A stretch of 30,854 nt of DNA from a virus, in IMG/VR virus record IMGVR_UViG_3300021405_000044, positions 1 through 30,854 of that record, one strand, 5' to 3'. The notes under the pieces are model-generated. The model saw nothing but the letters and a program-made list of their open reading frames with translations, was not told where the DNA came from and did no database searches. Position numbers and translations under genes: made by a program. The number at the start of each line of letters is the position of its first letter. Within the stretch, counting starts at the first letter, position 1. This document shows positions 2,797 through 28,197 of this stretch, in pieces.

Positions 2797-2998
2797 GGTC
2801 AACGGCCCCCTGATGGAGGATTACAAGCGGGCGCTCAAGGCGGCGCGGTGGGCGGGCGTCAAGGCGGTGCGCATCGAAATCGGCGCCGGGGCTATTGTCT
2901 TGATTATGGACGATGCATATCTGGAGAAGTTGGCATTGGGCCAACCTCCCGCACAGGAATTAAAGGGGGAGGGGAAGCTCCCAGAGCCAAACTGGTAA
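2786..2998 (+). CDS. 70-aa phage protein of unknown function upstream of integrase
   Basis: The ATG at 2786 follows a good GGAGG at 2775-2779. The frame overlaps the end of the secreted-protein gene by 11 bases. The first half is basic and helical (EDYKRALKAARWAGVKAVRIEI), then a hydrophobic strand AIVLIM, an acidic turn, and a Pro/Gly/Lys tail. It could be a small DNA-binding or excisionase-like partner of the integrase by position only; no helix-turn-helix is obvious. Its stop TAA lies in the ribosome-binding region of the integrase, which suggests coupled expression. The 3' part contains one copy of the TTGGC-N5-GCCAA dyad. Confidence 0.6.
   Translation: MVTKVNGPLMEDYKRALKAARWAGVKAVRIEIGAGAIVLIMDDAYLEKLALGQPPAQELKGEGKLPEPNW
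2929..2945 (+). promoter_or_regulatory. Dyad GTTGGC-ATTGG-GCCAAC upstream of integrase
   Basis: Six-base perfect arms around a 5-base centre, about 65 bp before the integrase ATG. The 18-mer AGTTGGCATTGGGCCAAC (2928-2945) recurs exactly, inverted, at 5709-5726. A variant with one compensatory change per arm is at 25317-25333. It is a candidate operator for a phage regulator that is not encoded in this window. Confidence 0.45.
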
Positions 2999-3009
2999 GG
3001 GAACCTAAA

Positions 3010-4131
3010 ATGCACTCCGTTTCACGCAAGCAAGACGACAACAACCATCTCACCCAGGCCTTCGGGCCGGGCCGCCGCAGGCCGAAGGGCCTGCACGCCG
3101 AAATCGACTTTCGCGGCAATCCGATCTGGACCTATCGCGAAGGCCATGGGCCGCGCATCCGCATCAATGAGACGTTCGGCACGCAGTCGTTCGAGGAGGC
3201 CTACTACAAGGCCCGCCTGACCTACGGCCATGCCGATGCGCCCGTCGAGGCCCCGAAGCCGTTCGGCCTCTCGCCCACCAACCCAGCCTCGCTGGCGTGG
3301 CTGATCGACCAGTTCCTGCGCTCGCCGGGCCAGCGCCAGATGGCCGAGGGGACGCAGAAGCAGCGCCGCAACGTGTTGGGCAGGCTCGCCAAGAAGAACG
3401 GCTCGATTGCGTTCCGCGACATCACCGACGACTGGGTCATGAAGCTGCAGGAAAAGATCGCCGCCACCGGCAAGCTCACCGCCGCCAACGCCGCCGTCGC
3501 CCACCTCAGGCTGGCGTTCATCTGGGCCGTCAAGCAGAAGCATGTCGCGAAGAACCCCTGCCTGGGCGTCGAACCCGTGGCGTACAAGGGCGGCAGCAAC
3601 CACCGCTGGACCGACGTGGAGGCCGACACGTTCGAGCAGGCCTACCCGCTCGGCACGCGCGAGCGGCTCGCCTACGCGCTCCTGCTCTACTCAGGCCAGC
3701 GCGGCGTCGACGTGATCAAGATGGGCCGCCAGCATATCCACGCTGGCCAGTTGTCGGGGCTCAAGGCGCAAAAGACCGGGGCGGCCATCAACGTGCCGGT
3801 CCTACCGGTCCTGCAGGAGGCTATCGACGCCTGCCAGGAGAAGGGCGACCTGACCTTCCTCCTCGATCCCAAGACGGGCGCCCCGTTCAACATCGAGCGG
3901 TTCGGCCGGTGGTTCCGCGCCGCCTGCGACGCGGTGAACGTGCCGAACTGCACGCCGCACGGCCTCAGGCACATGGGCGCCACGCGCTTGGCGCAAAACG
4001 GCTGCAAGTACCAGACGCTCCAGGCGATCTATCATTGGAGCATGGTGACGGCGATCAACTACACCAAGGAGGCCGAACACGCCGCCAGCGCGAAGGCCGA
4101 GATCCACCTCTTGGCCAAGCGCGCCGCGTGA
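3010..4131 (+). CDS. int: Tyrosine-type site-specific integrase
   Basis: 373 residues. It would integrate and excise the phage at attachment sites. Catalytic residues of the tyrosine recombinase family are in place: R231 (SGQRGVD), K255, H317-x2-R320 (PHGLRHMGA), H342 (IYHWS) and the nucleophile Y351 (INYTKEAEH). An arm-binding region (1-80) and a core-binding SAM-like domain (about 95-185) precede the catalytic domain. The ATG at 3010 is chosen because AAGGGA lies about 8 bases upstream, overlapping the previous gene's stop; the longer open frame has no comparable site. A terminator follows 8 bases after the stop. Phage genes continue beyond it, so the attachment site should be close by in the 5.3-5.8 kb region. 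Confidence 0.95.
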   Translation: MHSVSRKQDDNNHLTQAFGPGRRRPKGLHAEIDFRGNPIWTYREGHGPRIRINETFGTQSFEEAYYKARLTYGHADAPVEAPKPFGLSPTNPASLAWLIDQFLRSPGQRQMAEGTQKQRRNVLGRLAKKNGSIAFRDITDDWVMKLQEKIAATGKLTAANAAVAHLRLAFIWAVKQKHVAKNPCLGVEPVAYKGGSNHRWTDVEADTFEQAYPLGTRERLAYALLLYSGQRGVDVIKMGRQHIHAGQLSGLKAQKTGAAINVPVLPVLQEAIDACQEKGDLTFLLDPKTGAPFNIERFGRWFRAACDAVNVPNCTPHGLRHMGATRLAQNGCKYQTLQAIYHWSMVTAINYTKEAEHAASAKAEIHLLAKRAA

Positions 4132-4475: not shown

Positions 4476-4820
4476 ATGCGAAAGCCAGACCCCACCTGCT
4501 GCCTCTGTGGACTGCCCTACGAGCGGATCGGCAACAACCCCGCGCCGCTCTACATGGGCGAGGGGCGCTGCTGCGACGCCTGCAACGAGGTCGTCATCGA
4601 GGCGCGCCTCGATCCAGGGGCGATCTTGAGGGAGATCGAGCGCGTCGCCAATGCGATGGCGCGCGTCGCCATCGACGGCGGGCCGCATCAGATGGCCAGG
4701 ACGGCGATCTGCGCCTCGCGCGGCCCCGGCTTATGGGCCGCGCACAAGGCCGTGCTTATGCAGTTGCGTGAAGCTCACGCACCCGGCGACGGCTCAGAGC
4801 CCCCCACCCAAGCCCAATAA
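4476..4820 (+). CDS. Small zinc-finger-like phage protein
   Basis: 114 residues. Four or more cysteines form a zinc-ribbon-like pattern: CCLCGLPYERIGNNPAPLY, then CCDACNEVVIEARL, i.e. C-x2-C ... C-x2-C. The 'GxGNNPxPL ... CCDxCN' layout is one I recognise from short phage proteins of unknown role. A helical region with ANAMARVAI and a Pro-rich tail follows. The start has GGAGGA 6 bases upstream, and the preceding stop abuts the ATG. Its last 65 bases overlap, tail to tail, the convergent PEP-CTERM gene. Confidence 0.7.
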   Translation: MRKPDPTCCLCGLPYERIGNNPAPLYMGEGRCCDACNEVVIEARLDPGAILREIERVANAMARVAIDGGPHQMARTAICASRGPGLWAAHKAVLMQLREAHAPGDGSEPPTQAQ

Positions 4821-9344: not shown

Positions 9345-10669
9345 CACATGCTCCCTTGCTGTCGAGCATACATGTCATAGGGCGATAGCTGCCCCGACAT
9401 CAGCGCCATCTGCAATTGGCCGGGCGAGTTGAGCGTCGTCCCCGGCATCGCGGGCATGCCGGTCGCTTGGCCGGGCGCCATCGGCTGGATCGTCGACTGG
9501 ATCGTCGAGGGGACGACCGGCTGAGTGCCGCCGCCGCCGAATGCGGCCAGCGTCGGCTGCGTCATGAAGCCCTGCTGGGCGAGCGACTGCTCGGCCGCTC
9601 TCGCCCCGAACGTGTTCTGCCCGCCCGGCCCCATCATCATCGGGCCGCCCATCGCCCGCGCCTGGGGGGCCTGCGGGAGCTGCATCGGGGGCGGTTGGTC
9701 GTCGCCGCCGCCGCCCTTGCCGCCCGACAGCGGCTTCATGGCGCTCGCCAGTTGGCCCGCCAAGCCCCCTGAGGGCGCTGCGGGCTGTCCAGTAGCCGAA
9801 GCGGCTGGAGGGGCGCTGGCGGGGCTCCCAGAGGCTCCTGAGGGGTTTATAGCGTTCGCCTGGATCACGCCGAGGGGCTGGGACGTGTCGATGCCTGGAT
9901 ATTTGGCCACGACCGCGTTGACGGTCGACGAGGCCCAGCGGTTGAGCGGGATGACGCTCGCCACCTTGATCTGCACGTCGCGAGGCGCGCTGTCGGGCGT
10001 GGGATACTGCTTCAGATCCACGCCCGCCTTGGGGGCGAAGTCGTTCCACGTGCCGGTCGTGATCTGGGCGTTGCCCTGCGCCTGCCCGCTCGATGTCCCC
10101 TGGTGGGTGTTGTTGATGTTGCGGTCGCCGCTTTCGGCGTTGAGGACGATGTCAAGCGGGCTCGAATTGAGCGAAGTCCCCGGCGTCGGCGTTCCCGGCC
10201 GGGACGGGGCGGGCGTCGCCCCGGTGTAGGCGATAGCGCCCTGAGCTGGCGCTGGCTGGCTCGCGGGCCGCCAGCCAGCGAGGTGGTACTGGTTGATGTC
10301 GCTGGCGAGGTCGCCCCCCAGTTGGATGTGACCCTTGTCGCTCATGCCGATCCCACTCAGGCCGAACTGCGGCGCCATCGACTGGAGGCGCGCATAGTCG
10401 TTCGGGTTGCTGAGATTGAAATCGGCGGCGAGCCCGTAGTTGTGGAACGAGCGCCACGGCGCCGCGACGACAGAAGGCGCTTCCACATTCGGATAAGGCA
10501 GCGGTTGCCCTGCCGACTTCGCCAGATGATTTTGATACATCTGGTTCTGATACTCAGGCGAGCGGTAGCCAGAGAGGAGGCTGTTCCCGATGCCAGCCTG
10601 GGTCAGCGCGTCGCGGAGCTGGCCGAGCCGCGTCGCAAAGACTGGGTTGAGGTCGCTGAAGTCAGCCAC
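9344..10669 (-). CDS. Virion peptidoglycan hydrolase: M15 peptidase domain plus lytic-transglycosylase-like domain
   Basis: 441 residues, GTG start with GGAGGG 7 bases upstream. N-terminal domain (1-130) has the LAS/M15 (D-Ala-D-Ala peptidase) pattern: LSGYRSPEYQ, SFHNYGLAADF with zinc ligands H76 and D83, and KGHIQL with H114. A Pro/Thr linker follows. The second domain (168-265) looks like an SLT/lysozyme fold: VLNAESGDRN (catalytic Glu candidate E179), GQAQGNAQITTGTWNDFAPKAG, and a terminal RWASS. The rest is Pro/Gly/Met-rich. Such two-activity proteins sit in the virion and open the wall during DNA entry; it differs from the GH19 endolysin elsewhere. Domain 2 is less certain than domain 1. 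Confidence 0.75.
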   Translation of the reverse strand: MADFSDLNPVFATRLGQLRDALTQAGIGNSLLSGYRSPEYQNQMYQNHLAKSAGQPLPYPNVEAPSVVAAPWRSFHNYGLAADFNLSNPNDYARLQSMAPQFGLSGIGMSDKGHIQLGGDLASDINQYHLAGWRPASQPAPAQGAIAYTGATPAPSRPGTPTPGTSLNSSPLDIVLNAESGDRNINNTHQGTSSGQAQGNAQITTGTWNDFAPKAGVDLKQYPTPDSAPRDVQIKVASVIPLNRWASSTVNAVVAKYPGIDTSQPLGVIQANAINPSGASGSPASAPPAASATGQPAAPSGGLAGQLASAMKPLSGGKGGGGDDQPPPMQLPQAPQARAMGGPMMMGPGGQNTFGARAAEQSLAQQGFMTQPTLAAFGGGGTQPVVPSTIQSTIQPMAPGQATGMPAMPGTTLNSPGQLQMALMSGQLSPYDMYARQQGSM

Positions 10670-12104
10670 TCATCAGCCCTCCAGCGACGCGCGGCATGGC
10701 GGCGTTCGGCCGCAGGCGCTGCGGTCGCATGGCGGCGCCCATCGCGCCGTTGAGCCCCATCGGTTGCGGCGGCGCGAGCGCGCCTGGGACCCGCGTCGCA
10801 AACGCGCCGTTCGCGCCCGGCATGCGGCGCGGCCTGATCGCAGGCCCGTTGTCGTTCGCGCCCATTGGCGGCCCGGCCTGATTGAGCGCGGCCATGTTGA
10901 CGGTATGGAGCGCCTGCCCGGTGGGCGCGTGCACGCCGACAGTCTGCACCGCGTGCGGCGCGACCTGCATCGCGTCCTCGGCCATCGGCCCGGTGACCTT
11001 GGGGAACGACTTGGGATCGCCCTTGTAGCGATAGCTGTACAGCGGCAAGCCCGTCGGCGGATGGACGCCAACCTTGGTGATGTCGGTCTTGAGGTGGCTG
11101 TCCGAGCCGCCGAAGAAGTTCGCCAAACCCGTCAGCGCGCTTGTGCCGCCAGCGGGCGCGGAGGCCAAGCCGCCGAGCGCCTGCAGGCCGCCCGTGACAT
11201 CGGCCATCAGCGACGGCGTCGTCGTCTGCTGCGTCTGCCCGGTCGATGAGCCCATCGTCGTCGAGCCGTAAGGCGTCATGCCCAGAGCCGACTGCAGGAT
11301 GCCGAGCTGCTGGCCGGGATATTGCTGCGCCGCGTTGAACTGGTTCATCTGCGCGTTGATCTGGTTTTGCGCCTGCTGCTGCTGCTGCGCGCCAGCGGTG
11401 CTTTCCTCGAGGAATTGCTGGCGCTGGTTCTGCTGCGCTTGACTGCCGAGATTGCCGAGGCCGCCAGCCGCCGCGATCAGCGAATTGATGTTGGCCTGAT
11501 TGGCGCTCTGGTTGCCCTGCGCCGCCTGGAGGTTGCGGGTGATGTCGCCGGTCGCCGCCTGCTGCGCCTGCTGAAAATTCGCTTGGTTCAACTGCGACGC
11601 CATCTGGCCGATGTTCATCGCGCCCTGCGCCTGGGCGACGCCCTGCTGCACGCCCTGCCGCGAGCCGCCGAAGGCGTTGGCCGAATTGGCTTGGTTCTGC
11701 TGCTGGTTCTGAGCGAGCGCGTTCTGCTGCTGCATCAGCGGCAGCGTGTTGTTGATCACGCTCTGCGTGTAGGGGTTCATGTAGGGCTGCAGATTGGTGT
11801 TCGAGAGCTGCTGCGCGTTGACCTGCGTCGCGGGCGTCCCGGCCGCCGTGAGAAAGCCAGCCTGCGCGGCGTTGTACTGATCGGCGCCCGCGCCGCCGCT
11901 GGTCGCCGCCAAGTTCCAGGCCTGCTGGGTTTGCGGGCCGATGTCGGCGACCTGCTGGCCTGAGAACTGGGTGAGCGGCCGGTTGGCGATGTTCTGGGCC
12001 AGCGCATAGTTCTGCTGCGCCGCCTGATTGACCCACGGCGGCAACTGCGTCTGGCTGATGCTCTGCTGCTGCGAGGAAGTGTCGGTCGAACCGGAACTGC
12101 CCAT
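10662..12104 (-). CDS. Gln/Asn-rich structural protein with C-terminal S74-like domain
   Basis: 480 residues; AAGGA lies 8 bases before the ATG. Residues 1-290 are strongly Gln/Asn/Ala-rich with an FGGSRQGVQQG element. From S334 the sequence SDSHLKTDITKVG, then GLPLYSYRYKGDP, then GPMAEDAMQVAPHAV follows the intramolecular-chaperone (peptidase S74) pattern, with Ser334 and Lys339 spaced as in the self-cleaving Ser/Lys dyad. A basic Met/Pro/Arg-rich tail of about 70 residues follows. In fibres this domain assists trimerisation and is then released; here it ends a non-fibre-like protein, as in several short-tailed phages. Cleavage itself is not shown. Its last codons overlap the next GTG. Confidence 0.72.
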   Translation of the reverse strand: MGSSGSTDTSSQQQSISQTQLPPWVNQAAQQNYALAQNIANRPLTQFSGQQVADIGPQTQQAWNLAATSGGAGADQYNAAQAGFLTAAGTPATQVNAQQLSNTNLQPYMNPYTQSVINNTLPLMQQQNALAQNQQQNQANSANAFGGSRQGVQQGVAQAQGAMNIGQMASQLNQANFQQAQQAATGDITRNLQAAQGNQSANQANINSLIAAAGGLGNLGSQAQQNQRQQFLEESTAGAQQQQQAQNQINAQMNQFNAAQQYPGQQLGILQSALGMTPYGSTTMGSSTGQTQQTTTPSLMADVTGGLQALGGLASAPAGGTSALTGLANFFGGSDSHLKTDITKVGVHPPTGLPLYSYRYKGDPKSFPKVTGPMAEDAMQVAPHAVQTVGVHAPTGQALHTVNMAALNQAGPPMGANDNGPAIRPRRMPGANGAFATRVPGALAPPQPMGLNGAMGAAMRPQRLRPNAAMPRVAGGLMSG

Positions 12105-14590: not shown

Positions 14591-15366
14591 TGGTACTTGA
14601 TGATGAAGTTGACCTGCTGGAACGGCGGCAGGTTGTTGTGCGCTGCGCCGCCGCCGGTGTTTGCAGCGACAGTGATGGCGGGCTGCGCTGTGGGAACGGT
14701 GATAGCAGGCGCTTGAGAGTCGGTATTCCCGCCGAGATTGCCCGCCGTGTCGGTATTCCCGCCGAGATCCCCCGCAGTCGAAGTCGTTTGAGTTCCTAAT
14801 TGCGCGCCGACGCCGCCTGGAACTCCAGAACCGGCGCTGAAACTGACCGAATTTGGAACCGTGTGATTGTGGGCTCCGGTATGGATGGCGTGCGAGTGAC
14901 CGCCGGTCGCGATATTGTGCGCGTGCGTGGCCTGAGTAGCGGCGTGACCGTGAGCCGCTTGTGTCGCCGGGTGCGTGTGCGCCGGGATCATGGTCGCGTC
15001 GAGAGTGACGGTCGCCGCGCCGCCGACTGCGCCGAGCGTGCCAGCGCCCATCGGAAATCGGTTGCGGAGATCGGGCAGATTGAAGTTCGCCCCAGAGCCG
15101 CCGCAGGTGTAGCCGAGGATGGCGAACAGGGCCGCATAGGTTCCCGTGGTCGAGAGCAACGCGCCGTTGCAGATCAGCCAGTTGGTCGGCGGCGTTGCGG
15201 CCAGCCACATCACCGTCGCGCCGACTGGAACCCCGGCCTGCTGGTTCAGAAAGACCTGATTGTCGACCTTCTGCGTCGTCGCGTTGAGCGTCGCGCCCCA
15301 GGTGTTGGCGGACGCGCCGGGGTCCGGCATCGTCCAGCCATAGTTGACTGTAGTTGTCTCAGCCAC
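14587..15366 (-). CDS. Tail-collar domain protein with His-rich segment
   Basis: 259 residues. GTG at 15366 is preferred: GGAGG lies 6 bases upstream, and the frame beyond it is the shadow of the overlapping gene. The N-terminal block NYGWTMPDPGASANTWG is nearly the same as the tail fibre's N terminus, suggesting a shared virion anchor. Next comes the phage tail-collar fold: PVGATVMWLAATPPTNWLIC, then YAALFAILGYTCGGSGANF, then LPDLRNRFPMGAGT. A His-rich region with repeated HxH (HTH, HGH, HAH, HSH, HNH) could bind metal ions as in other fibre tips. A 10-residue tandem repeat (GGNTDTAGNL) and a C-terminal strand PPFQQVNFIIKY follow. Confidence 0.85.
   Translation of the reverse strand: MAETTTVNYGWTMPDPGASANTWGATLNATTQKVDNQVFLNQQAGVPVGATVMWLAATPPTNWLICNGALLSTTGTYAALFAILGYTCGGSGANFNLPDLRNRFPMGAGTLGAVGGAATVTLDATMIPAHTHPATQAAHGHAATQATHAHNIATGGHSHAIHTGAHNHTVPNSVSFSAGSGVPGGVGAQLGTQTTSTAGDLGGNTDTAGNLGGNTDSQAPAITVPTAQPAITVAANTGGGAAHNNLPPFQQVNFIIKYQ
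14719..14768. repeat. 30-bp-period tandem repeat in the collar gene
   Basis: GTCGGTATTCCCGCCGAGAT occurs at 14719-14738 and again at 14749-14768. It encodes the GGNTD repeat of the collar protein on the minus strand. The exact DNA identity suggests a recent duplication. Confidence 0.85.
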
Positions 15367-15618: not shown

Positions 15619-17772
15619 TCAAAGCTCCGCTGTTGCAGTAAATCCGGCCACTGCAAGACCCGCCCCACCAGCAGCAGCAGCAACAAAGTTCATAACAAAA
15701 CGCGACTGAGATATTGATGTGATGTTAAAAGTACTCATGTTTGTGTTACCTGACTGCGTGCCGGGAGCAATTGTAGGAGTTGCTCGCATTGTTACGGGAA
15801 GCGCAAAAGGCACGTTGCTAAATCCACTAACCGCCCATGAGTTAAATCCAACTGAGTATGACGTTGGATCACTGAAATAATACCTCTGGCAATCCGCCAA
15901 AGACTTGGTAAGCGACTGCCGATTGTAGGGCGTTGCTACGCTGCCGATCTCCAGCTTGACGCCAGTGATGTTGAAGATCGCGCCGTTGGTCGCGACAACG
16001 CTGACCGCCCCGGTCACACCGAGGAAATTGCCGTTTTGCCAAGAGTTCGCCGTTGACCGTAAAGTCGAGCCAGAACCAAGATCGAAATCAACAGTCAACC
16101 CCCCGCCGTTGCCCGACATCACCCACGTTCCGGCGCTATCGCCGGGGATGGTGACGGCGACTTTCGTCCAAGTGCTCGCGGTCGGCAGGGAGAAAGTAAA
16201 AGGATAAGAGCGGTTCGACGCGGTGTTGCGGATCGCCCCGGCGAACGTCCCGGCCAATGTCGAGAACGCCAAGAACGATACCGTTACTGGTTGCGCGTTC
16301 GGCGTTCCCCACGCGAAATCGCTGACCGTGTCGGCTTCAATCGGCTGAGTGAACCTAAAAACATCCGCCGCTGCCGCCGCATATGCAGACGACGATGTAA
16401 AAGAAAGATAATTCGCAAATCCAGCCGCCTGAAGAGCCGGTGCGCCAACAGCAGTTCCGCGCGCCCACGTTCCCTTGCTTGCTTGGTTTGAGCCATAGAA
16501 CCAACGATCAACCGTATAGACGCCCAACGCTGTTCCGGCCGCGCCGTTGTTGCGCTGGTCGATCCGCATGTCGCCGTTGATGATGCGGTTGTCGCCAATA
16601 GCTTGCGGCGGGAGTGGATGAACGTGATCGCCGCGTGACCACGCTATCGACGAACCAACCGCCGCCGTTCCGCTCGGCAAGGGCGTCGTGGTGGAGGCGA
16701 CCGGGACGCTGGAAGTCAACGCGTAGGGCGCAAGCGTCGCCGTCCAGTCGGTAATGTCGGTATGCGTCAGATGCGCCCAGGCGGCGCTCTTGCGAGCGTA
16801 GGCCGTGCCGTCGTTGGGCGCGTCCGAGATCCCGCCGCCGCCGCCCGCTGGCGTCGCCCAGGACAGGACGCCTGAGCCGTTGGTCGAGAGGAACTGCCCC
16901 GACGTGCCGCCTGGGAGGATGAACGACCCAGGCCCCTGCAGCGCAAACGAACCGTTGACCGCCGCGCCCGCGTTCATGTTGACGGGACCGTTAAGATTGG
17001 TCGAGCCGTCAGCGCGGTTGATGGTCAGCCAATTGCCGAGAAACGCGCCCGTGGCGCTGTAAGCCGCCAAACTGAAATTCGAGCCGGTGTTGTTCAATCC
17101 CTCGGTGGTTTGATCGCCGAGCGTCAGCACCCAACGAGAAACGTTGGACGCCATGCCCAAAATGGAACGCTGATTGCCGCCGGTCACAGGCGCGTTCAGC
17201 ACCAAACTGTTGCTGCCCTGCACGGTCAGCACCTGATTGACCGTCAAGCTGCCTGTGACGGTGCCGCCCGCGATGGGCAGATAAGGGCCGCCAGTGACCG
17301 GCGTCACCCAGGACAAATTGCCGTTGCCATCGGTCGCGGGGACTTGGCCGAGAGAGCCGCCGCCAAGCTGCAGTTGGGCGATTGTCGGCACCGAGCAGAC
17401 CGCCGAGCCCGCGAACAGAAGCGCGCCGCCCGTCACCGCCCCGCCCGCGCTCAGATTGGTCTGCCCGGTGAACGTCCCGCCTGCGGCCGGAACGACGAGG
17501 TTCCAAGCCCCAGCCGTGCGCCCGTAAGTCTGGTTGTCGGGCGCATCATCGACGCCGCCCCCAGGCGGGCCTTGCGGCCCAGGCGGCCCCACAGGTCCTG
17601 GCGGCCCCAGAGGCCCAGGCGGTCCTTGCGGCCCTGTCGTGCCGTCCTCGACGGTCCTGAGCTGCGCGTCGATGGCGTCGAGATCGATGTTGAGCTTGTC
17701 GCCCCACGTGTCGTCGCTCGCCCCGATGTCGGGCTTCGTCCATCCGTAGTTCAGCGTGAAGCTGTCAGCCAC
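15619..17772 (-). CDS. Tail fibre with collagen-like segment and divergent tip
   Basis: 717 residues from the GTG at 17772 (GGGGGCG about 8 bases upstream). Order: anchor [17 protein letters not shown] (8-24) shared with the collar protein; nine Gly-X-Y triplets (about 47-73, [15 protein letters not shown] and on); repetitive shaft with [10 protein letters not shown] and [10 protein letters not shown] units, i.e. the GGTxTG fibre repeat; then [17 protein letters not shown] and a beta-rich region that looks like a carbohydrate-binding receptor tip ([20 protein letters not shown]). The tip-coding DNA (about 15,640-16,500) is only 42-48 percent GC in hand-counted lines, unlike the shaft, which suggests exchange of the receptor-binding part. 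Confidence 0.85.
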
Positions 17773-20315: not shown

Positions 20316-21966
20316 CGAGCGCCCCGCTCCCGGCGACGCCGAGGAGCGGATGAACGCCGCGCCAGAAATTGTTCTCAACATCAGACTGCGTTGAGCCTGT
20401 GCGGTAAGCGGTGTTGTTGATGCGGTTCTGGAAGGCCTGAGCCGCCGTTTCCGGCGGCGATCCGAGCCCGGTGACCCCGCCGCCGCCGATCCAGCCCCCG
20501 GCCTGGGCCTGCGCCGGATCTTTGCCGAGGCTGGCGGCCATGCCCTTCCAGTACTGCTCCATGGCTGGATATTCGTTTTTCGGATTGGGCGCGTCGTCCC
20601 ACCACGTCGGGTTCTTGAACGCCTCGTCCATGCTGACCTGACCGCCCGTCACCGCCTCTCTCGGATTGAAGTCTGGATAGCCTGGGGCGCCCTTCGGCAC
20701 GCCAGTCGCCAGGAAACGCGGATCGCGCGACAGCATGGCCGGGAGCTTGAAGGCGTGCATGTCGACGGCGACCGGCGAGTAGTTGCCGAGCAGGTCCTGA
20801 TTGAACGATGGCGGCTTCGGGTTCTCCTCCGAATTGTAGGCCGCCGTCGGATCGTATCCGGCATCGGTGATCTTCTCGACGTTCTGCATATGCTGGCCCT
20901 GGACATAGTGTCCGTAGAGCGGGGGCGGCGTTTCCGTCCCGCCCTGGAGCTTGCCCTGGAGCGGCGGCATGCCGTTGGCGTCGCGCCAGTAGTAGTAGCT
21001 CGCTCCCCTGAGGTTGGGCGGGAACTTCTGCTGCGGCGACGTTCCGCCGACGAGGGCCATGTATTTCTCGTAGGCGGCTTGCCCGTCGTCCGCTCCCAGC
21101 GCCCTGACGGCGCTGTCTTGGATGGGCGAGGTGTTGTACCAGCGGTCGCCGATCTGCGAGCCCTGCTGCACATAGTCCATGACCTGCTTACGGACATCGG
21201 GATTGGCGATGAGATCGGCGACGCGGGGAGAGACGGCCGGGCCACGCACCATCGAGCCGCGCGGCAGATCGAACTGCTCGACGCCTGCCGGGCGCTTGGC
21301 GAGCGCCGGATCATTCGGATCGAACATGTTGGGGTAGCTTGGCCCGCCCTCTGGGATGGTGAGCGGCGCGGAGGTGATCGGCTTGCCATTGTCGGTGAGC
21401 CAACGCTGCTGGGCGGGGTCCCAGGTGACCTGGGGCAGGCCCTTGGCGGCCCTCGTTGCGGCGCCCGTGAGGGCGTCCTCGGTGACGCTGGGCGTCGGCG
21501 CGGCTCCTGTCATCCGGTCGAGCGCCGCTTGCCCAGGGGACGCCTGGGCGGCCCTGGAGGCCTGCGCAGCGGCGTCGGCGTCGGCCGAGGCTGTCCTTGC
21601 CCCAGTGGCGATCTCCTCGGCTGTCCTGGCCCCTCTGGCGGCCCTGGCGGCCAGGGGAGCGACGGCGAGCGTCGACGCGCCAGCCATCGGGCTCATGCCG
21701 CCGCCGAAGGTTGGCGAGGTGAGCATCTGGTAGGCTTCCCTGCCGAGCGTAGGCTGGCTGAAGCCCTCTCCCACGGGCTGGCCGGTCGCGTAGTCGATGG
21801 CGTGTCCCACGCCCTGCGCGCCCTGATCCATGAGCCCGCCGACGACCGCACGCGGATCGACCGGCATGAGCGGCGTGTTGTCGGGGAGCTTCGGCCTGCG
21901 CGGCGAGCCGGGCAGCGGTTTGCCGGGCGGCAGGTTGCCGAAGATGCTGTCGTCCCAGCCCGCCAT
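20224..21966 (-). CDS. Conserved large phage protein, unknown domain (GNYxPVAVDMHA motif)
   Basis: 580 residues from the ATG at 21966, which shares a base with the previous stop (TAATG). The N-terminal 200 residues are Ala/Gly/Pro-rich. The C-terminal 350 residues form a domain with recurring phage motifs: VADLIANPDVRKQVMDYVQQG, DRWYNTSPIQDSAVRALG, SPQQKFPPNLRGASYYYWRDANG, KPPSFNQDLLGNYSPVAVDMHAF and EYPAMEQYWKGMAASLG. I recall this layout from large internal proteins of phages, with no assigned activity; the conserved His/Asp hints at a possible enzyme. Located between capsid-side genes and the endolysin. Confidence 0.6.
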   Translation of the reverse strand: MAGWDDSIFGNLPPGKPLPGSPRRPKLPDNTPLMPVDPRAVVGGLMDQGAQGVGHAIDYATGQPVGEGFSQPTLGREAYQMLTSPTFGGGMSPMAGASTLAVAPLAARAARGARTAEEIATGARTASADADAAAQASRAAQASPGQAALDRMTGAAPTPSVTEDALTGAATRAAKGLPQVTWDPAQQRWLTDNGKPITSAPLTIPEGGPSYPNMFDPNDPALAKRPAGVEQFDLPRGSMVRGPAVSPRVADLIANPDVRKQVMDYVQQGSQIGDRWYNTSPIQDSAVRALGADDGQAAYEKYMALVGGTSPQQKFPPNLRGASYYYWRDANGMPPLQGKLQGGTETPPPLYGHYVQGQHMQNVEKITDAGYDPTAAYNSEENPKPPSFNQDLLGNYSPVAVDMHAFKLPAMLSRDPRFLATGVPKGAPGYPDFNPREAVTGGQVSMDEAFKNPTWWDDAPNPKNEYPAMEQYWKGMAASLGKDPAQAQAGGWIGGGGVTGLGSPPETAAQAFQNRINNTAYRTGSTQSDVENNFWRGVHPLLGVAGSGALATPLVQQFWASLQQPGATAQGGAPDAPRYW

Positions 21967-22265
21967 TAGACGCGCCCCTGCCAAACACGGAAGGGGGCGG
22001 CCTCGGCGCTATTGAGATAGCGCGCCCAGTCGGCCTCGTCCCACTGCTGATGGACGGCGCGCTCGTAGACTTCGATGGGGATGCGGGCGAGCAGCCGGTT
22101 GACGCCGTTGTGCGGCATCGTCTCGCGGTCGCGCGCGATCCCGGCGAGGATCTCGTCGAGGACCTGCTCGGTCTGGATGACGAAATCCTCAGGGCGCTCG
22201 TCGTCGGTGATGAGCGTGCGCCGCACGCCGTCGCCGTTGCGGTACGTCGTGCGGCGCTCAGTCAC
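21966..22265 (-). CDS. 99-aa phage protein of unknown function after the capsid gene
   Basis: GTG at 22265 overlaps the capsid stop (GTGA). The N terminus TERRTTYRNGDGVRRTLITDDERPEDFVIQTEQ is basic then acidic. The central part has DEILAGIARDRE, and the C terminus RIPIEVYERAVHQQWDEADWARYLN is helical and aromatic. It resembles small proteins found directly downstream of the capsid gene in related phages; no function known. Confidence 0.65.
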   Translation of the reverse strand: MTERRTTYRNGDGVRRTLITDDERPEDFVIQTEQVLDEILAGIARDRETMPHNGVNRLLARIPIEVYERAVHQQWDEADWARYLNSAEAAPFRVWQGRV

Positions 22266-23254
22266 TTCTTGATGCCGTTGAACAAAATGTGCGCCAACGG
22301 GTTGCGCATTTCGAGGCCCCATTCGCACACGATCATGCGCGTCTCGGCGTCGCCGACGCGGGCCATCAGGAACTGTCGGAACGCCCTGAAAAAGGCGACC
22401 GCAGCGTAGTCTGGATCAATCAGCAATCCGACATCAGGTAACAGCCAACGCGACGGAGCAACTTTGATGCGTCCGAAGTCGGTCGCGATCACGTCAATGG
22501 TTGATACAACCTCCGTTTTACCAACCAAGACTTGCGTTGTGCTTCGGCCGGTGAATGTCGAGATGGTTCTCTTCGGCCCTGGCGGCACGATCCACATGGT
22601 GGGCGAGCCACCGTTCTGGTATGCCTGCTGCATCGCATCGCCGAGCATCTGTTCGGTGATGCTGACTTGGCTACCGACGGCGACGTTGCCGAACGGGTCG
22701 GTCGCCGCCACCGGCAGGCCGGTGGTGACGGTGCCGGGCGCGATGGCCGCGTTGACGTTCGAGTTCTTGTCGGTGGCTCGGCCGAGCCAGTGCGAGAAGG
22801 CCTCGGTGGTGCGCGGGGTCGTCTGGTAGTTCGCCGAAGTGTCGGCGCTGCGCGGCTGGCGAGAGCAGAGGATGCTCTCCATGTCGCTCTTCAAGACCTT
22901 GGCGGCGAGCGCCATCTGGTGGGCCATCTCTGACCCTTTGCCCGCCGCGTCGCTCTCCTCCTGCGAACCAGACACGGTCGCGTCGCGTTCGCTGATCTGG
23001 GTGATGTTGTTGCGACGGATCGTCGGCTGAGACGGGCCGTTAGCCAGCGCAAACCCTTCCAGTTGAGCATTCGCAAGGTTGACCAGCGGCAGGAACTCGG
23101 TCTGCCAGTCGAACAGCCGGTTCTTTACATTTCGCCTCCGAATAGCCGACATGACCGGCGTGTCGAAGGGGTCGATGTTGTAGATGGCGTTCGAGAGATC
23201 TTCGCGGTTCGCTTGGGCGTTATAGGTAGTGAAGGCGTTCGTGACCTGAGGCAC
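22262..23254 (-). CDS. Major capsid protein (SU10/DUF5309-like, HK97 fold expected)
   Basis: 330 residues, GTG start with GAAAGGAT about 8 bases upstream. N terminus TTYNAQANREDLSNAIYNIDPFDTPVMSAI is the characteristic 'NREDLSNxIYNIDPxDTPxMSxI' of DUF5309 capsid proteins. It continues with beta-rich blocks (SEMAHQMALAAKVLKSDMESIL, MWIVPPGPKRTISTFTG, DFGRIKVAPSRWLLPDVGLLIDPDYAAVAFFR) and MIVCEWGLEMRNPLAH near the end, all typical of that family. It forms the head shell. A structured leader with four stem-loops separates it from the scaffold gene. Confidence 0.92.
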   Translation of the reverse strand: MPQVTNAFTTYNAQANREDLSNAIYNIDPFDTPVMSAIRRRNVKNRLFDWQTEFLPLVNLANAQLEGFALANGPSQPTIRRNNITQISERDATVSGSQEESDAAGKGSEMAHQMALAAKVLKSDMESILCSRQPRSADTSANYQTTPRTTEAFSHWLGRATDKNSNVNAAIAPGTVTTGLPVAATDPFGNVAVGSQVSITEQMLGDAMQQAYQNGGSPTMWIVPPGPKRTISTFTGRSTTQVLVGKTEVVSTIDVIATDFGRIKVAPSRWLLPDVGLLIDPDYAAVAFFRAFRQFLMARVGDAETRMIVCEWGLEMRNPLAHILFNGIKK

Positions 23255-23283
23255 GGGGTGATCCTTTCGGGCAAGAGGGAATA

Positions 23284-23377
23284 TCCGCCGGTCAGTGGCG
23301 GACTATTGGCTCTAGCCCGAAGGTCTAGACTATGCGCTCCAGCCCTAAGACTGGACATAAGCTCCGGTTACCCCGGA
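23284..23377 (-). ncRNA. Candidate structured RNA: four tandem covarying stem-loops before the capsid gene
   Basis: In the 127-base gap between scaffold stop (tandem TAATAA) and capsid start, the minus-strand transcript reads four hairpins in a row. H4: TCCGG/CCGGA (23377-23373 with 23367-23363). H3: TCCAG/CTGGA (23355-23351 with 23342-23338). H2: TCTAG/CTAGA (23329-23325 with 23315-23311). H1: TCCGCC/GGCGGA (23302-23297 with 23289-23284). The stems differ by paired changes while the flanks stay similar: ATAGTC (or ATGTC, ATAAGTC) before and GAGC after each. Loops include UUCG closed by CC/GG (H2) and UUAG (H3). Spacing is 24-27 bases. It may act as RNA that stabilises or regulates the capsid message, or as protein-binding DNA. 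Confidence 0.6.
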
Positions 23378-23381
23378 CTTA

Positions 23382-24536
23382 TTATCGGCCCCGAATAAAC
23401 TGGGCCATCACCGCCGCTGCGTCGTCGACGCGGCCGGTGCTTGCGAGCCTCTTCTGGGCGTCGTTCATCGAGCGCGCCGCGCCATTGCCGACGCGCGGCG
23501 CCGATCCCGGCCGCAGCGCCCCCTGGCGCTCAGGCTGCACGGGGAAGGGCTTGTTCTCCATCATGCGGTCATACTTGGCCGCCTTGTGCAGGATCGACAG
23601 CATGCGCTCGTCGTAGGTCGTGCCGATCTCGTCCTCGCTGAAGCCGTGCGACATCGCGGTGCGGCGCATGCCGGTGATGGCGTGGTCGACCTCGGTCTGG
23701 TTGGCGAGCCGGTTCTTGGAGCGGAACTTGTCGAACTCGGCCCGCGCATATTGCGCCGTTTGCTGGGCGTGGGCTTGATAGGCCTCGCGCTGCGCATATT
23801 CGCGGCGCTGGCGGATCTGGTTGAGCGTGCCGTAGACCTGCCGGTAGTTCAACTCCAACTGGCGGGCGGCGGCCGGGTCCTGCTTGTAGAGGGCGTCCCA
23901 GTCGGGCTCCTTGGGGATCACCGCCTGGAACTCTTGCTCTTGGTTCTGGCAGAGCTGGATGTAGGCCTCGCGCGCCTGCTGGGCTTCGGCGCCGCGCTGA
24001 TCGATGGTCTTGGCGACCTCGACCATCTGGCGCATGCGCGAATTGAACGTCTCCTCGCGCTGGTAGCCCCTGAGCGCCTCGTTGAGGCTGACCTCGCGCT
24101 CTTCGCCGTCTATCTGGATCTTGTACCGGGGCGAGGAGTCCTCGCCTTGTTCCCCGTCGGGACCGGCCCCCTTGTCTGGTTTTTGAGCGTTTGGATCGGC
24201 ATCGTCGGAACCTTCGCCGATCCGCTCTGGCGGCTCATCTTGGGTTGCGTCGTGTTCGTCGTTGGCGGGGGCTGCAGCGCGTTTCGCGGGCCTCGGAACG
24301 GCGTCCCCTTCTTCAGACCGGCCATCAGCAATTCTCCTCTCCTGTTCGAGCAGGCGCGGGTCTGCGCCGCCGTCGGACGTGTCGCCGCGCTCGTCGCCTT
24401 CCGTCTCGCGGGGCTGGAAGATCGGCTCAGGCTTGTTGGTGGAGACGAAGCGTCCGCCCTGGTCGCGCTGGCGCGTCGCCTGGGGGATCTCCTGTGCGAA
24501 GGCCTCGCGGGCCTCGTCCAATCCCTCTGGGGGCAT
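23382..24536 (-). CDS. Head scaffolding protein
   Basis: 384 residues. ATG overlaps the preceding stop (TGATG). The N-terminal 150 residues are highly charged and disordered (acidic, Pro/Asp/Glu-rich). The middle has YKIQIDGEEREVSLNEALRGYQR, which matches the 'KVxGxExExxLxELxxGYxR' element of phage scaffolds, then long Gln/Glu/Ala/Arg helices (QQAREAYIQLCQNQEQEF; QRREYAQREAYQAHAQ). The basic C terminus (KRLASTGRVDDAAAVMAQFI) is where scaffolds contact capsid. Order portal-scaffold-capsid is standard. It would guide procapsid assembly and then leave. Confidence 0.8.
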   Translation of the reverse strand: MPPEGLDEAREAFAQEIPQATRQRDQGGRFVSTNKPEPIFQPRETEGDERGDTSDGGADPRLLEQERRIADGRSEEGDAVPRPAKRAAAPANDEHDATQDEPPERIGEGSDDADPNAQKPDKGAGPDGEQGEDSSPRYKIQIDGEEREVSLNEALRGYQREETFNSRMRQMVEVAKTIDQRGAEAQQAREAYIQLCQNQEQEFQAVIPKEPDWDALYKQDPAAARQLELNYRQVYGTLNQIRQRREYAQREAYQAHAQQTAQYARAEFDKFRSKNRLANQTEVDHAITGMRRTAMSHGFSEDEIGTTYDERMLSILHKAAKYDRMMENKPFPVQPERQGALRPGSAPRVGNGAARSMNDAQKRLASTGRVDDAAAVMAQFIRGR

Positions 24537-25027
24537 CAGGCGGCCCTCCTCGGAATTGGCTGGAAGGGAACGCGCTTCGCGCGAGCCTCAAGGTAAGCGG
24601 CGTGAGCCTGCTCTCTGCTGTCGAACAGGCCGAGGTAAACGTACTTTCGATTGACGCATATTCGCGCTTGCCACTTACGCCCGACAGCAGATGTGCCTGC
24701 GAACTCGCTCAGAGCGATGTTGTGGGTGCTTTCGCTATGGTTTGCCGCTCGAAGATTATCCTGGCGATTGTCGCTTTCGACCCCATTGCGGTGGTCGACA
24801 ATCGCTTCCGGCCATTTGCCGGTTACGAGCGCCCAAATCACCCGATGGGCGAGCAATTGATGGCGGACGCCTTTGCACCGCAAGTCAACCGCGATGTAGC
24901 CCTCGCTGTTGAGATGTCCCGCGATCTGACCGCGTCGCTTTTTCCGGCGCCAAATGAGATGACCACCGAGCGGGTCGTAATCGAAGGCCTCGCGCAAGAC
25001 CTCAACCGAGAGATCGGCCTCAGGCAT
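24536..25027 (-). CDS. Free-standing homing endonuclease, HNH plus AP2 domain
   Basis: 163 residues; AAGGCGG lies about 6 bases before the ATG. The N-terminal half has the HNH core: LLAHRVIWALVTGKWPE, then AIVDHRNGVESDNRQDNLR and a trailing ESTHN. The C-terminal part is an AP2-like DNA-binding domain: GRKWQARICVNRKYVYLGLF, then DSREQAHAAYLEA. The pair is typical of phage homing endonucleases that cut an uninfected copy of a nearby gene. It overlaps the previous gene by 8 bases and shares one base with the scaffold start, so insertion left both neighbours readable. One line of its DNA counts 53 percent GC, lower than the neighbours. Confidence 0.9.
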   Translation of the reverse strand: MPEADLSVEVLREAFDYDPLGGHLIWRRKKRRGQIAGHLNSEGYIAVDLRCKGVRHQLLAHRVIWALVTGKWPEAIVDHRNGVESDNRQDNLRAANHSESTHNIALSEFAGTSAVGRKWQARICVNRKYVYLGLFDSREQAHAAYLEARAKRVPFQPIPRRAA

Positions 25028-27735: not shown

Positions 27736-28197
27736 TTACCTTTCGGCGTATCGGTAGGCTTGGCCTTCGGCTCGCGGGCCGAGCTTGATGGCGCGCTCAA
27801 TCGACATTCCTGTTCGCACACGGTAGCGAACGAGGGCGCGATCCTTGACGCCGTAGCGGGACATCGCGACCTTGAGCGGTATCGTCTCGCCGTCGATTGT
27901 CACGCCACCGTGATAGAGCCTCCGATTAGCGAGGTTCTCGGCGCGCGTCGCCCAGCGGCAATTGCCGGGTTCGTATCCCTTATCATTGTCGATGCGCTCC
28001 AGCGTCAGCGACGGATCGGGCTTAGGCCCTATGTCCTTAAGGAAAGCCGCGAAGCTATCCCGCCACCGCTTGCAGACGGCGATCCCGCGTGCGCCATAAT
28101 TCTTATAGGAGATATGGCTTGGGTTGGCGCAACGTCTGCGCATGTTCTCCCAAGCACGATACTCTGGCGTCTTTGACATTCGATTGGAGATGGCCAT
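27736..28197 (-). CDS. HNH-like homing endonuclease
   Basis: 153 residues. SKTPEYRAWENMRRRCANP, then YKNYGARGIAVCKRW, then FAAFLKDIGPKPDPSLTLER, then IDNDKGYEPGNCRWATRAEN: this is a well-known phage family (YRAWxxMxxRCxNPxxxxYxxYGGRGIxVCxRW ... LDRIDNDGxYxPxNCRWAT), considered HNH-type homing nucleases. A C-terminal NUMOD-like DNA-binding helix (KVAMSRYGVKDRALVRYRVRTGMSIE) follows. ATG 28197 has GGAG 11 bases upstream. Its stop TAATG overlaps the portal's upstream ATG. It is located between terminase-side genes and portal. Confidence 0.82.
   Translation of the reverse strand: MAISNRMSKTPEYRAWENMRRRCANPSHISYKNYGARGIAVCKRWRDSFAAFLKDIGPKPDPSLTLERIDNDKGYEPGNCRWATRAENLANRRLYHGGVTIDGETIPLKVAMSRYGVKDRALVRYRVRTGMSIERAIKLGPRAEGQAYRYAER

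Follow-up and report, generated by a model that had tools for sequence, protein, structure and literature searches.

Two conserved, mutually exclusive folds before the capsid gene in a clade of SU10-type phages: a candidate switch at the ribosome-binding site

The window analyzed here is the 30.9-kb virus record IMGVR_UViG_3300021405_000044 of IMG/VR (positions 1–30,854), which carries SU10-type portal and capsid genes according to profile and PHROG matches. Its capsid gene is preceded by a leader of 127 nucleotides (nt), which runs from the scaffold stop codon to the capsid GTG (23381–23255, minus strand). A first-pass annotation had described this gap as lying between the scaffold and capsid genes, which was borne out by matches to phrog_3927 and PF17236, and had seen in it four tandem hairpins with compensatory stems. 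We found that one of these, hairpin 3, and a long hairpin ending on the capsid Shine-Dalgarno exclude each other, yet both are conserved with paired changes. Because of this, the leader, as modeled, looks like a bistable switch of the ribosome-binding site. With moderate confidence, we propose that it is a cis-acting, two-state RNA element that sets capsid translation.

The leader folded to -55.7 kcal/mol, as compared with -39.8 ± 3.9 kcal/mol for dinucleotide shuffles (z = -4.04; 0 of 200 as good). Only this comparison sets it apart; its absolute fold energy was unremarkable (rank 228 of 1025 windows in a GC-rich genome). All four stems named by the annotation are present, with unit starts spaced 22, 26 and 27 nt rather than the 24–27 bases it gave. 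Hairpins 1–3 (Table 1) do look alike, having the form GUC-stem-loop-stem-GAG. The fourth lacks the trailing GAG in the window and turned out to be the tip of a longer structure, and the side-by-side layout did not hold for the last two units, which the best fold joins into the long hairpin (23325–23260). The 5′ side of the long hairpin reads (GA)CCUUCGGGC-u-AGAG-cc-AAUA-g-UCCGCC, and its 3′ side GGCGGA-UAUU-cc-CUCU-u-GCCCGAA-a-GG(aUC). Pairing with CUCU and GCCCGAAAGG, the latter overlapping the capsid Shine-Dalgarno, thereby takes up the loop of hairpin 3 and its 3′ half; the segments involved are CC-UUCGGGC and AGAG of hairpin 3 on one side, and CUCU and GCCCGAA(A)GG on the other.

Array leaders, which come from uncultured and probably temperate phages, were collected by capsid searches of viral contigs together with DNA patterns for the element. 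We obtained 39 distinct leaders, the window included; 38 were folded together, and L425 was folded separately. They contain two to four units, with the consensus (A/G)UC-stem-loop-stem-GAG(C/A) and with stems that vary while the pairing is kept (UCCGG/CCGGA, UCAGG/CCUGA, UCCAG/CUGGA, UCUAG/CUAGA, UCUGA/UCAGA, UCUAU/AUAGA, and UCUCG/CGAGA). Hairpin 1 is missing in at least six leaders (L012, L015, L017, L021, L022, and L218), as is hairpin 2 (L005, L006, L016, L018, L029, and L031). Between phages, these two hairpins show CG→AU and CG↔UA exchanges, including a CG→AU double change in hairpin 1 of L034 and the hairpin 2 stems UCCAGUC/GACUGGA and UCUAGUC/GACUAGA and a U-G wobble. Hairpin 3 is kept in every array leader. 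Across 35 leaders, 99.4% of its cells were paired and three of its five pairs had changes on both sides (0 of 500 shuffles); the paired changes were AU→GC, GC→AU, GC→UA, and UA→CG, and L425, which was held out of alignment building, showed AU→CG. The tips of hairpin 4 occupy the same place with other letters (UCCGCC/GGCGGA, UCCAGC/GCUGGA, ACCGGC/GCCGGU). Hairpin 3 lies 78–81 nt from the start codon in all leaders. Folding the leader and searching for relatives, as the annotation had suggested, thus supported its view that structure is conserved: besides the z value above, 38 further leaders keep their stems through paired changes, which hold between phages and not just among the hairpins of one array.

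The long hairpin was the minimum-energy fold in all 38 leaders and in L425, three very divergent ones included. The fold z was below -2 in each of the 38 (median -4.35), and RNAalifold predicted the long hairpin from the alignment unprompted. In the helix on the Shine-Dalgarno side, 93.1% of cells were paired, as compared with 37–59% when the partner was slid, and three pairs had changes on both sides (0 of 500 shuffles). Individual leaders illustrate how the pairing is retained: L024 carries the paired change UUUCGAG/CUCGAAA, L016 pairs GGGU with ACCC, G-U wobbles occur in L008, L342, and L034, and both arms are shortened to match in L027. The most divergent member, L079, branches at the base of the array phages in the capsid tree. 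Its long hairpin has the usual arrangement but is made of different bases (UAGCC/GGCUA, UAGAG/CUCUA, AUCGG/CCGAU), and is closed by pairing of AGGCUA with the UAGCC of the 5′ arm of hairpin 3.

Alignment columns 20–24 belong to both hairpin 3 and the long hairpin, and neither fold can do without the 3′ arm of hairpin 3. The 5′ arm, which covaries with it, lies outside the main stems of the long hairpin, its end giving minor basal closing pairs in some leaders. Hairpin 3 is weaker than the long hairpin by 2–15 kcal/mol, and rough estimates put the direct-path barrier between the folds at 5.5–16 kcal/mol (median 11). In the proposed closed state, pairing around the Shine-Dalgarno would engage the loop of hairpin 3 and its 3′ half, and the long hairpin would block or slow ribosome entry. 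In the open state, hairpin 3 would close on itself and hairpin 4 would stand alone, leaving the Shine-Dalgarno free. New message should start open, because transcription finishes hairpin 3 roughly 50 nt ahead of its competitor. The state could then be selected by folding order, by RNase III type processing, or by a protein reading the GUC...GAG unit, the last of these being reminiscent of Mu Com; such a factor may recognize the shared unit, hold hairpin 3 closed, and keep capsid translation on. We infer three things: translation falls when the long hairpin forms, the order of folding has a bearing on the outcome, and the units are bound by a factor. A more specific version is put forward only tentatively and is rather unlikely to hold in full. 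In it, a protein of the phage would attach to the look-alike hairpins (two to three of them) and fix hairpin 3 in place; the ribosome-binding site of the capsid gene would thereby open, and capsid production in this clade would no longer be tied to the scaffold gene.

AAGGA serves as the Shine-Dalgarno in 36 of the 39 array leaders, while sister phages, which lack the array, mostly have GAGG. Its two G residues form pairs in almost every leader, set off from the rest of the helix by a bulge or a G-A mismatch, and the opening cost is moderate. Occlusion by the long hairpin is plausible on these predictions; our expectation of strong occlusion of the Shine-Dalgarno alone was given up, as only a moderate cost was computed. 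In a 90 nt context, opening the stretch from the Shine-Dalgarno to the start codon cost 11.2 kcal/mol as compared with 6.1 kcal/mol in sister phages (p = 1e-13). In the latter, ribosomes translating the scaffold gene are expected to hold the start context open; in the array phages, the scaffold stop is presumably too distant for ribosomes to do so.

Several results weigh against a switch at this site. With a 130 nt context, the same opening costs were only 11.7 and 10.0 kcal/mol. Opening the Shine-Dalgarno alone took 4.3 kcal/mol on average, within the 3.5–5.1 kcal/mol of the sister phages, and this cost was ordinary against shuffles in most leaders. The GG of the Shine-Dalgarno is predicted to be free in L034. 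The helix on this side is mostly invariant, and its covariation rests on few leaders. No binding factor was identified. Contrary to our expectation, the antisense strand folded slightly better than the sense strand in 33 of 38 leaders, and strand assignment rests on position and on a small excess of sense wobbles (8 sense G-U to 4 sense A-C pairs in the Shine-Dalgarno-side helix, with a larger excess in hairpin 2). In addition, a possible pseudoknot, in which hairpin 3 would retain its lower stem while its loop pairs to the Shine-Dalgarno side, would meet much of the same conservation. The conserved CUCU, which is complementary to AGAG, and the case of L079 favor the long hairpin over this pseudoknot.

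Among the jobs offered by the annotation, which had missed the long hairpin and the exclusive folds, translational control is best supported: the long hairpin, which is conserved, reaches the Shine-Dalgarno, and GUG is the usual start codon. Message processing or stability is a rather unlikely sole function. An RNase III type cut of the long hairpin, or a shielded 5′ end of the processed message, would be at work, and removal of the upstream strand would free the Shine-Dalgarno. The long imperfect hairpin lies directly before one presumably highly expressed late gene, and RNase III is known to free occluded ribosome-binding sites, for instance in lambda cIII and Escherichia coli adhE (PMC5371410). 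Moreover, no sigma-70-like promoter was found in the region; processing or another promoter type would therefore be needed to give the message an internal end. However, the helix is interrupted by mismatches and internal loops whose positions are conserved, and processing alone explains neither the conserved competing hairpin 3 nor the common GUC...GAG of hairpins 1–3. The gap was also considered as a series of tandem intrinsic terminators, which was rejected; no G+C-rich hairpin followed by a T run occurs on the minus strand of 23100–23800. A conserved small open reading frame through the leader (77 aa, 23125–23358) was rejected as well, since its ATG is present in few leaders and the steps in gap length are not multiples of three.

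We regard an array of protein operators as quite unlikely. According to this explanation, a phage protein in excess (coat, scaffold, or other) would bind the hairpins and repress capsid translation, with no switch needed. A protein that reads flanks and helix shape would be expected to leave such units (two to four here), whose flanks are conserved and whose stems change freely, and a hairpin operator upstream of a ribosome-binding site is known for T4 gp43 (PMC3014915). The conserved pairing to the Shine-Dalgarno would, however, be left unaccounted for, and no candidate binder was found. The Mu Com zinc-ribbon (PF10122) was absent from all 13 genomes searched, the window and six array phages among them, some of these records being possibly incomplete. 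Comparing the gene content of array and non-array phages singled out no binder, as the comparison was too confounded by clade and the clade-specific genes were too many. A small cysteine-rich protein (CCLCGLxYERIGNNP...CCDACNEVV) occurs in several array phages, one of which has two copies; its loci are 4476–4820 in the window, 22496–22846 in G001, and 10510–11158 in G005. It has no PHROG match. This protein, compared among array phages only, is one candidate for a nucleic-acid-binding partner.

A role of the inverted repeats in the DNA itself, for recombination or DNA-protein binding at the gene boundary, is very improbable. In its favor, the repeats are also a property of the DNA, the antisense strand folds at least as well as the sense strand, and phages whose capsids are nearly identical have exchanged leader subtypes, as would happen at a recombination joint. 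However, the pairing of hairpin 3 to the Shine-Dalgarno region, its almost fixed spacing from the start codon, the start-codon change that goes with the array, and the sense-strand G-U pairs indicate RNA of the capsid strand.

To place the element in the phylogeny, we used a tree of 91 capsid proteins, in which the 33 phages with the array group together and the 58 without it fall outside that group. Presence of the array changes once on this tree (support 82/53), as it does in 84% of bootstrap trees; no loss was seen among the 33 members of the clade. This distribution fits a single origin. The annotation had held that homologous phages with the same capsid gene and no hairpins would speak against a conserved structure; such phages exist (58 of the 91 capsids), but since the 33 carriers form one clade without losses and the other 58 capsids have no array, the element is lineage-specific and not general to the SU10-type capsid gene. 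A covariance model located the element once per genome, at the capsid leader, in seven of seven array genomes, although several of these had supplied leaders to the model and their matches are partly by construction. It gave nothing above noise in six genomes without the array, nor in the capsid regions of OH, MJing1, phiM5, and MW202496. Weak opposite-strand matches at the position of the element are due to the inverted repeats. Of the held-out leaders, L425 scored 76 bits, and the most divergent one, L079, was missed at E ≤ 5.

The scaffold–capsid gap measures 101–139 nt with the array and 7–18 nt without it, and the capsid start codon is GTG in 36 of 39 array phages as compared with ATG in 44 of 44 phages lacking the array; both links are confounded by the single clade. 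Ochrobactrum phage OH is the nearest isolate, with 64.5% identity in the capsid; it has no leader and 1 nt between the genes. Two leader subtypes occur in phages with 97% identical capsids (window 23252–23381 and L001 2851–3000), suggesting recombination right at the scaffold–capsid junction. As subtypes co-occur among near-identical capsids, the leaders either undergo recombination or evolve fast, their fold being retained.

The annotation knew of no named RNA family with this layout, and Rfam 15 indeed gave no match in the window at the gathering threshold; at the relaxed E ≤ 10, there was one chance match (E = 9.5) on the other strand. No leader-like DNA was found in annotated phage and plasmid collections, and a loose pattern scan for the element returned mostly chance matches.

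Table 1. Features of the capsid leader and adjoining genes in the window
Feature	Position	Strand	Evidence and remarks
Capsid gene	22262..23254	-	PF17236 SU10_MCP, E = 4.5e-77; phrog_1328; GTG start at 23254-23252
Shine-Dalgarno AAGGA, capsid gene	23262..23266	-	Sequence; its GG paired in the long hairpin
Long hairpin, excludes hairpin 3	23260..23325	-	Minimum-energy fold; reaches the Shine-Dalgarno
Hairpin 4, tip of the long hairpin	23280..23307	-	Sequence varies by subtype
Hairpin 3, UCUAG-A-CC-UUCG-GG-CUAGA, local alternative fold	23311..23329	-	In every array leader
Hairpin 2, UCCAGUC-UUAG-GGCUGGA	23338..23355	-	Fold; stem varies, pairing kept
Hairpin 1, UCCGG-GGUAA-CCGGA, outer UAAG/CUUA, one bulged G	23358..23381	-	Fold; near-invariant in relatives
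Scaffold gene, upstream of the leader	23382..24536	-	phrog_3927 head scaffolding protein, E = 4e-35

Further features of the window were recorded. An integrase gene (2848–4131, plus strand; phrog_1, E = 8e-34) makes it probable that the phage is temperate; relatives of its capsid were sought in bacterial genome contigs, and none was confirmed. Two HNH endonuclease genes on the minus strand (24536–25027 and 27736–28197; phrog_99 and phrog_3377) flank the portal gene, the first of them immediately preceding the scaffold gene. Among 120-nt segments on the minus strand, 20431–20550 is the most stable (-71.7 kcal/mol); it overlaps long open frames. A short direct repeat, GTCGGTATTCCCGCCGAGA in plus-strand orientation, lies opposite a virion gene at about 16062–16136, a coordinate that is uncertain (alternatively 14719–14793, plus strand); it is probably a coding repeat.

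Among known systems, the lambda cIII message can adopt either of two folds that exclude each other, and in one of them the ribosome-binding site is partly occluded (PMC4166951); this site can be exposed by RNase III cleavage (PMC5371410). The present leader shares the two exclusive folds but serves a capsid gene, whereas cIII is a regulatory gene, and no sequence kinship was seen, neither Rfam nor the phage collections giving a match. We know of no array of look-alike hairpins in the cIII leader. In phage Mu, Com binds a hairpin near the translation inhibition structure of mom and opens it, and the Com motif contains GAG; as is proposed here, a phage gene with a GUG start is held in RNA structure (PMC6483171). 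Mom differs in having one hairpin site as compared with two to four, in that the target is a DNA modifier, and in that the present phages have no Com-family protein (13 genomes). The leaders of T4 genes e, soc, and 49 and of I-TevI are also among the closest known systems; those of e, soc, and 49 have occluded start regions, and for e, the longer early messages form the structure (PMC3014915). Control of gene e is tied to promoter choice, and no competing conserved hairpin is described there. The pseudoknot operator of T4 gene 32 is likewise a structured regulatory phage leader, and the present leader could form a pseudoknot between hairpin loop and Shine-Dalgarno (PMC3014915). The gene 32 operator is bound by gp32, however, and the main predicted fold of the present leader is not a pseudoknot. 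Neither kinship by descent nor the full set of tested defining features can be claimed for cIII, mom, or the T4 leaders. The element is a candidate for a new RNA family, with a familiar kind of mechanism in an unusual layout.

The production of far more capsid than scaffold protein from adjacent genes of tailed phages is usually ascribed to coupling and to plain ribosome-site strength. The array clade appears to have swapped a short, probably coupled junction for a private structured leader, a two-state site, and a weaker start codon. If the proposed mechanism is correct, these phages would provide a compact case of dosage control of a head protein, which can be compared with sister phages that lack the element, and a new candidate RNA family, situated before a capsid gene, would be added.
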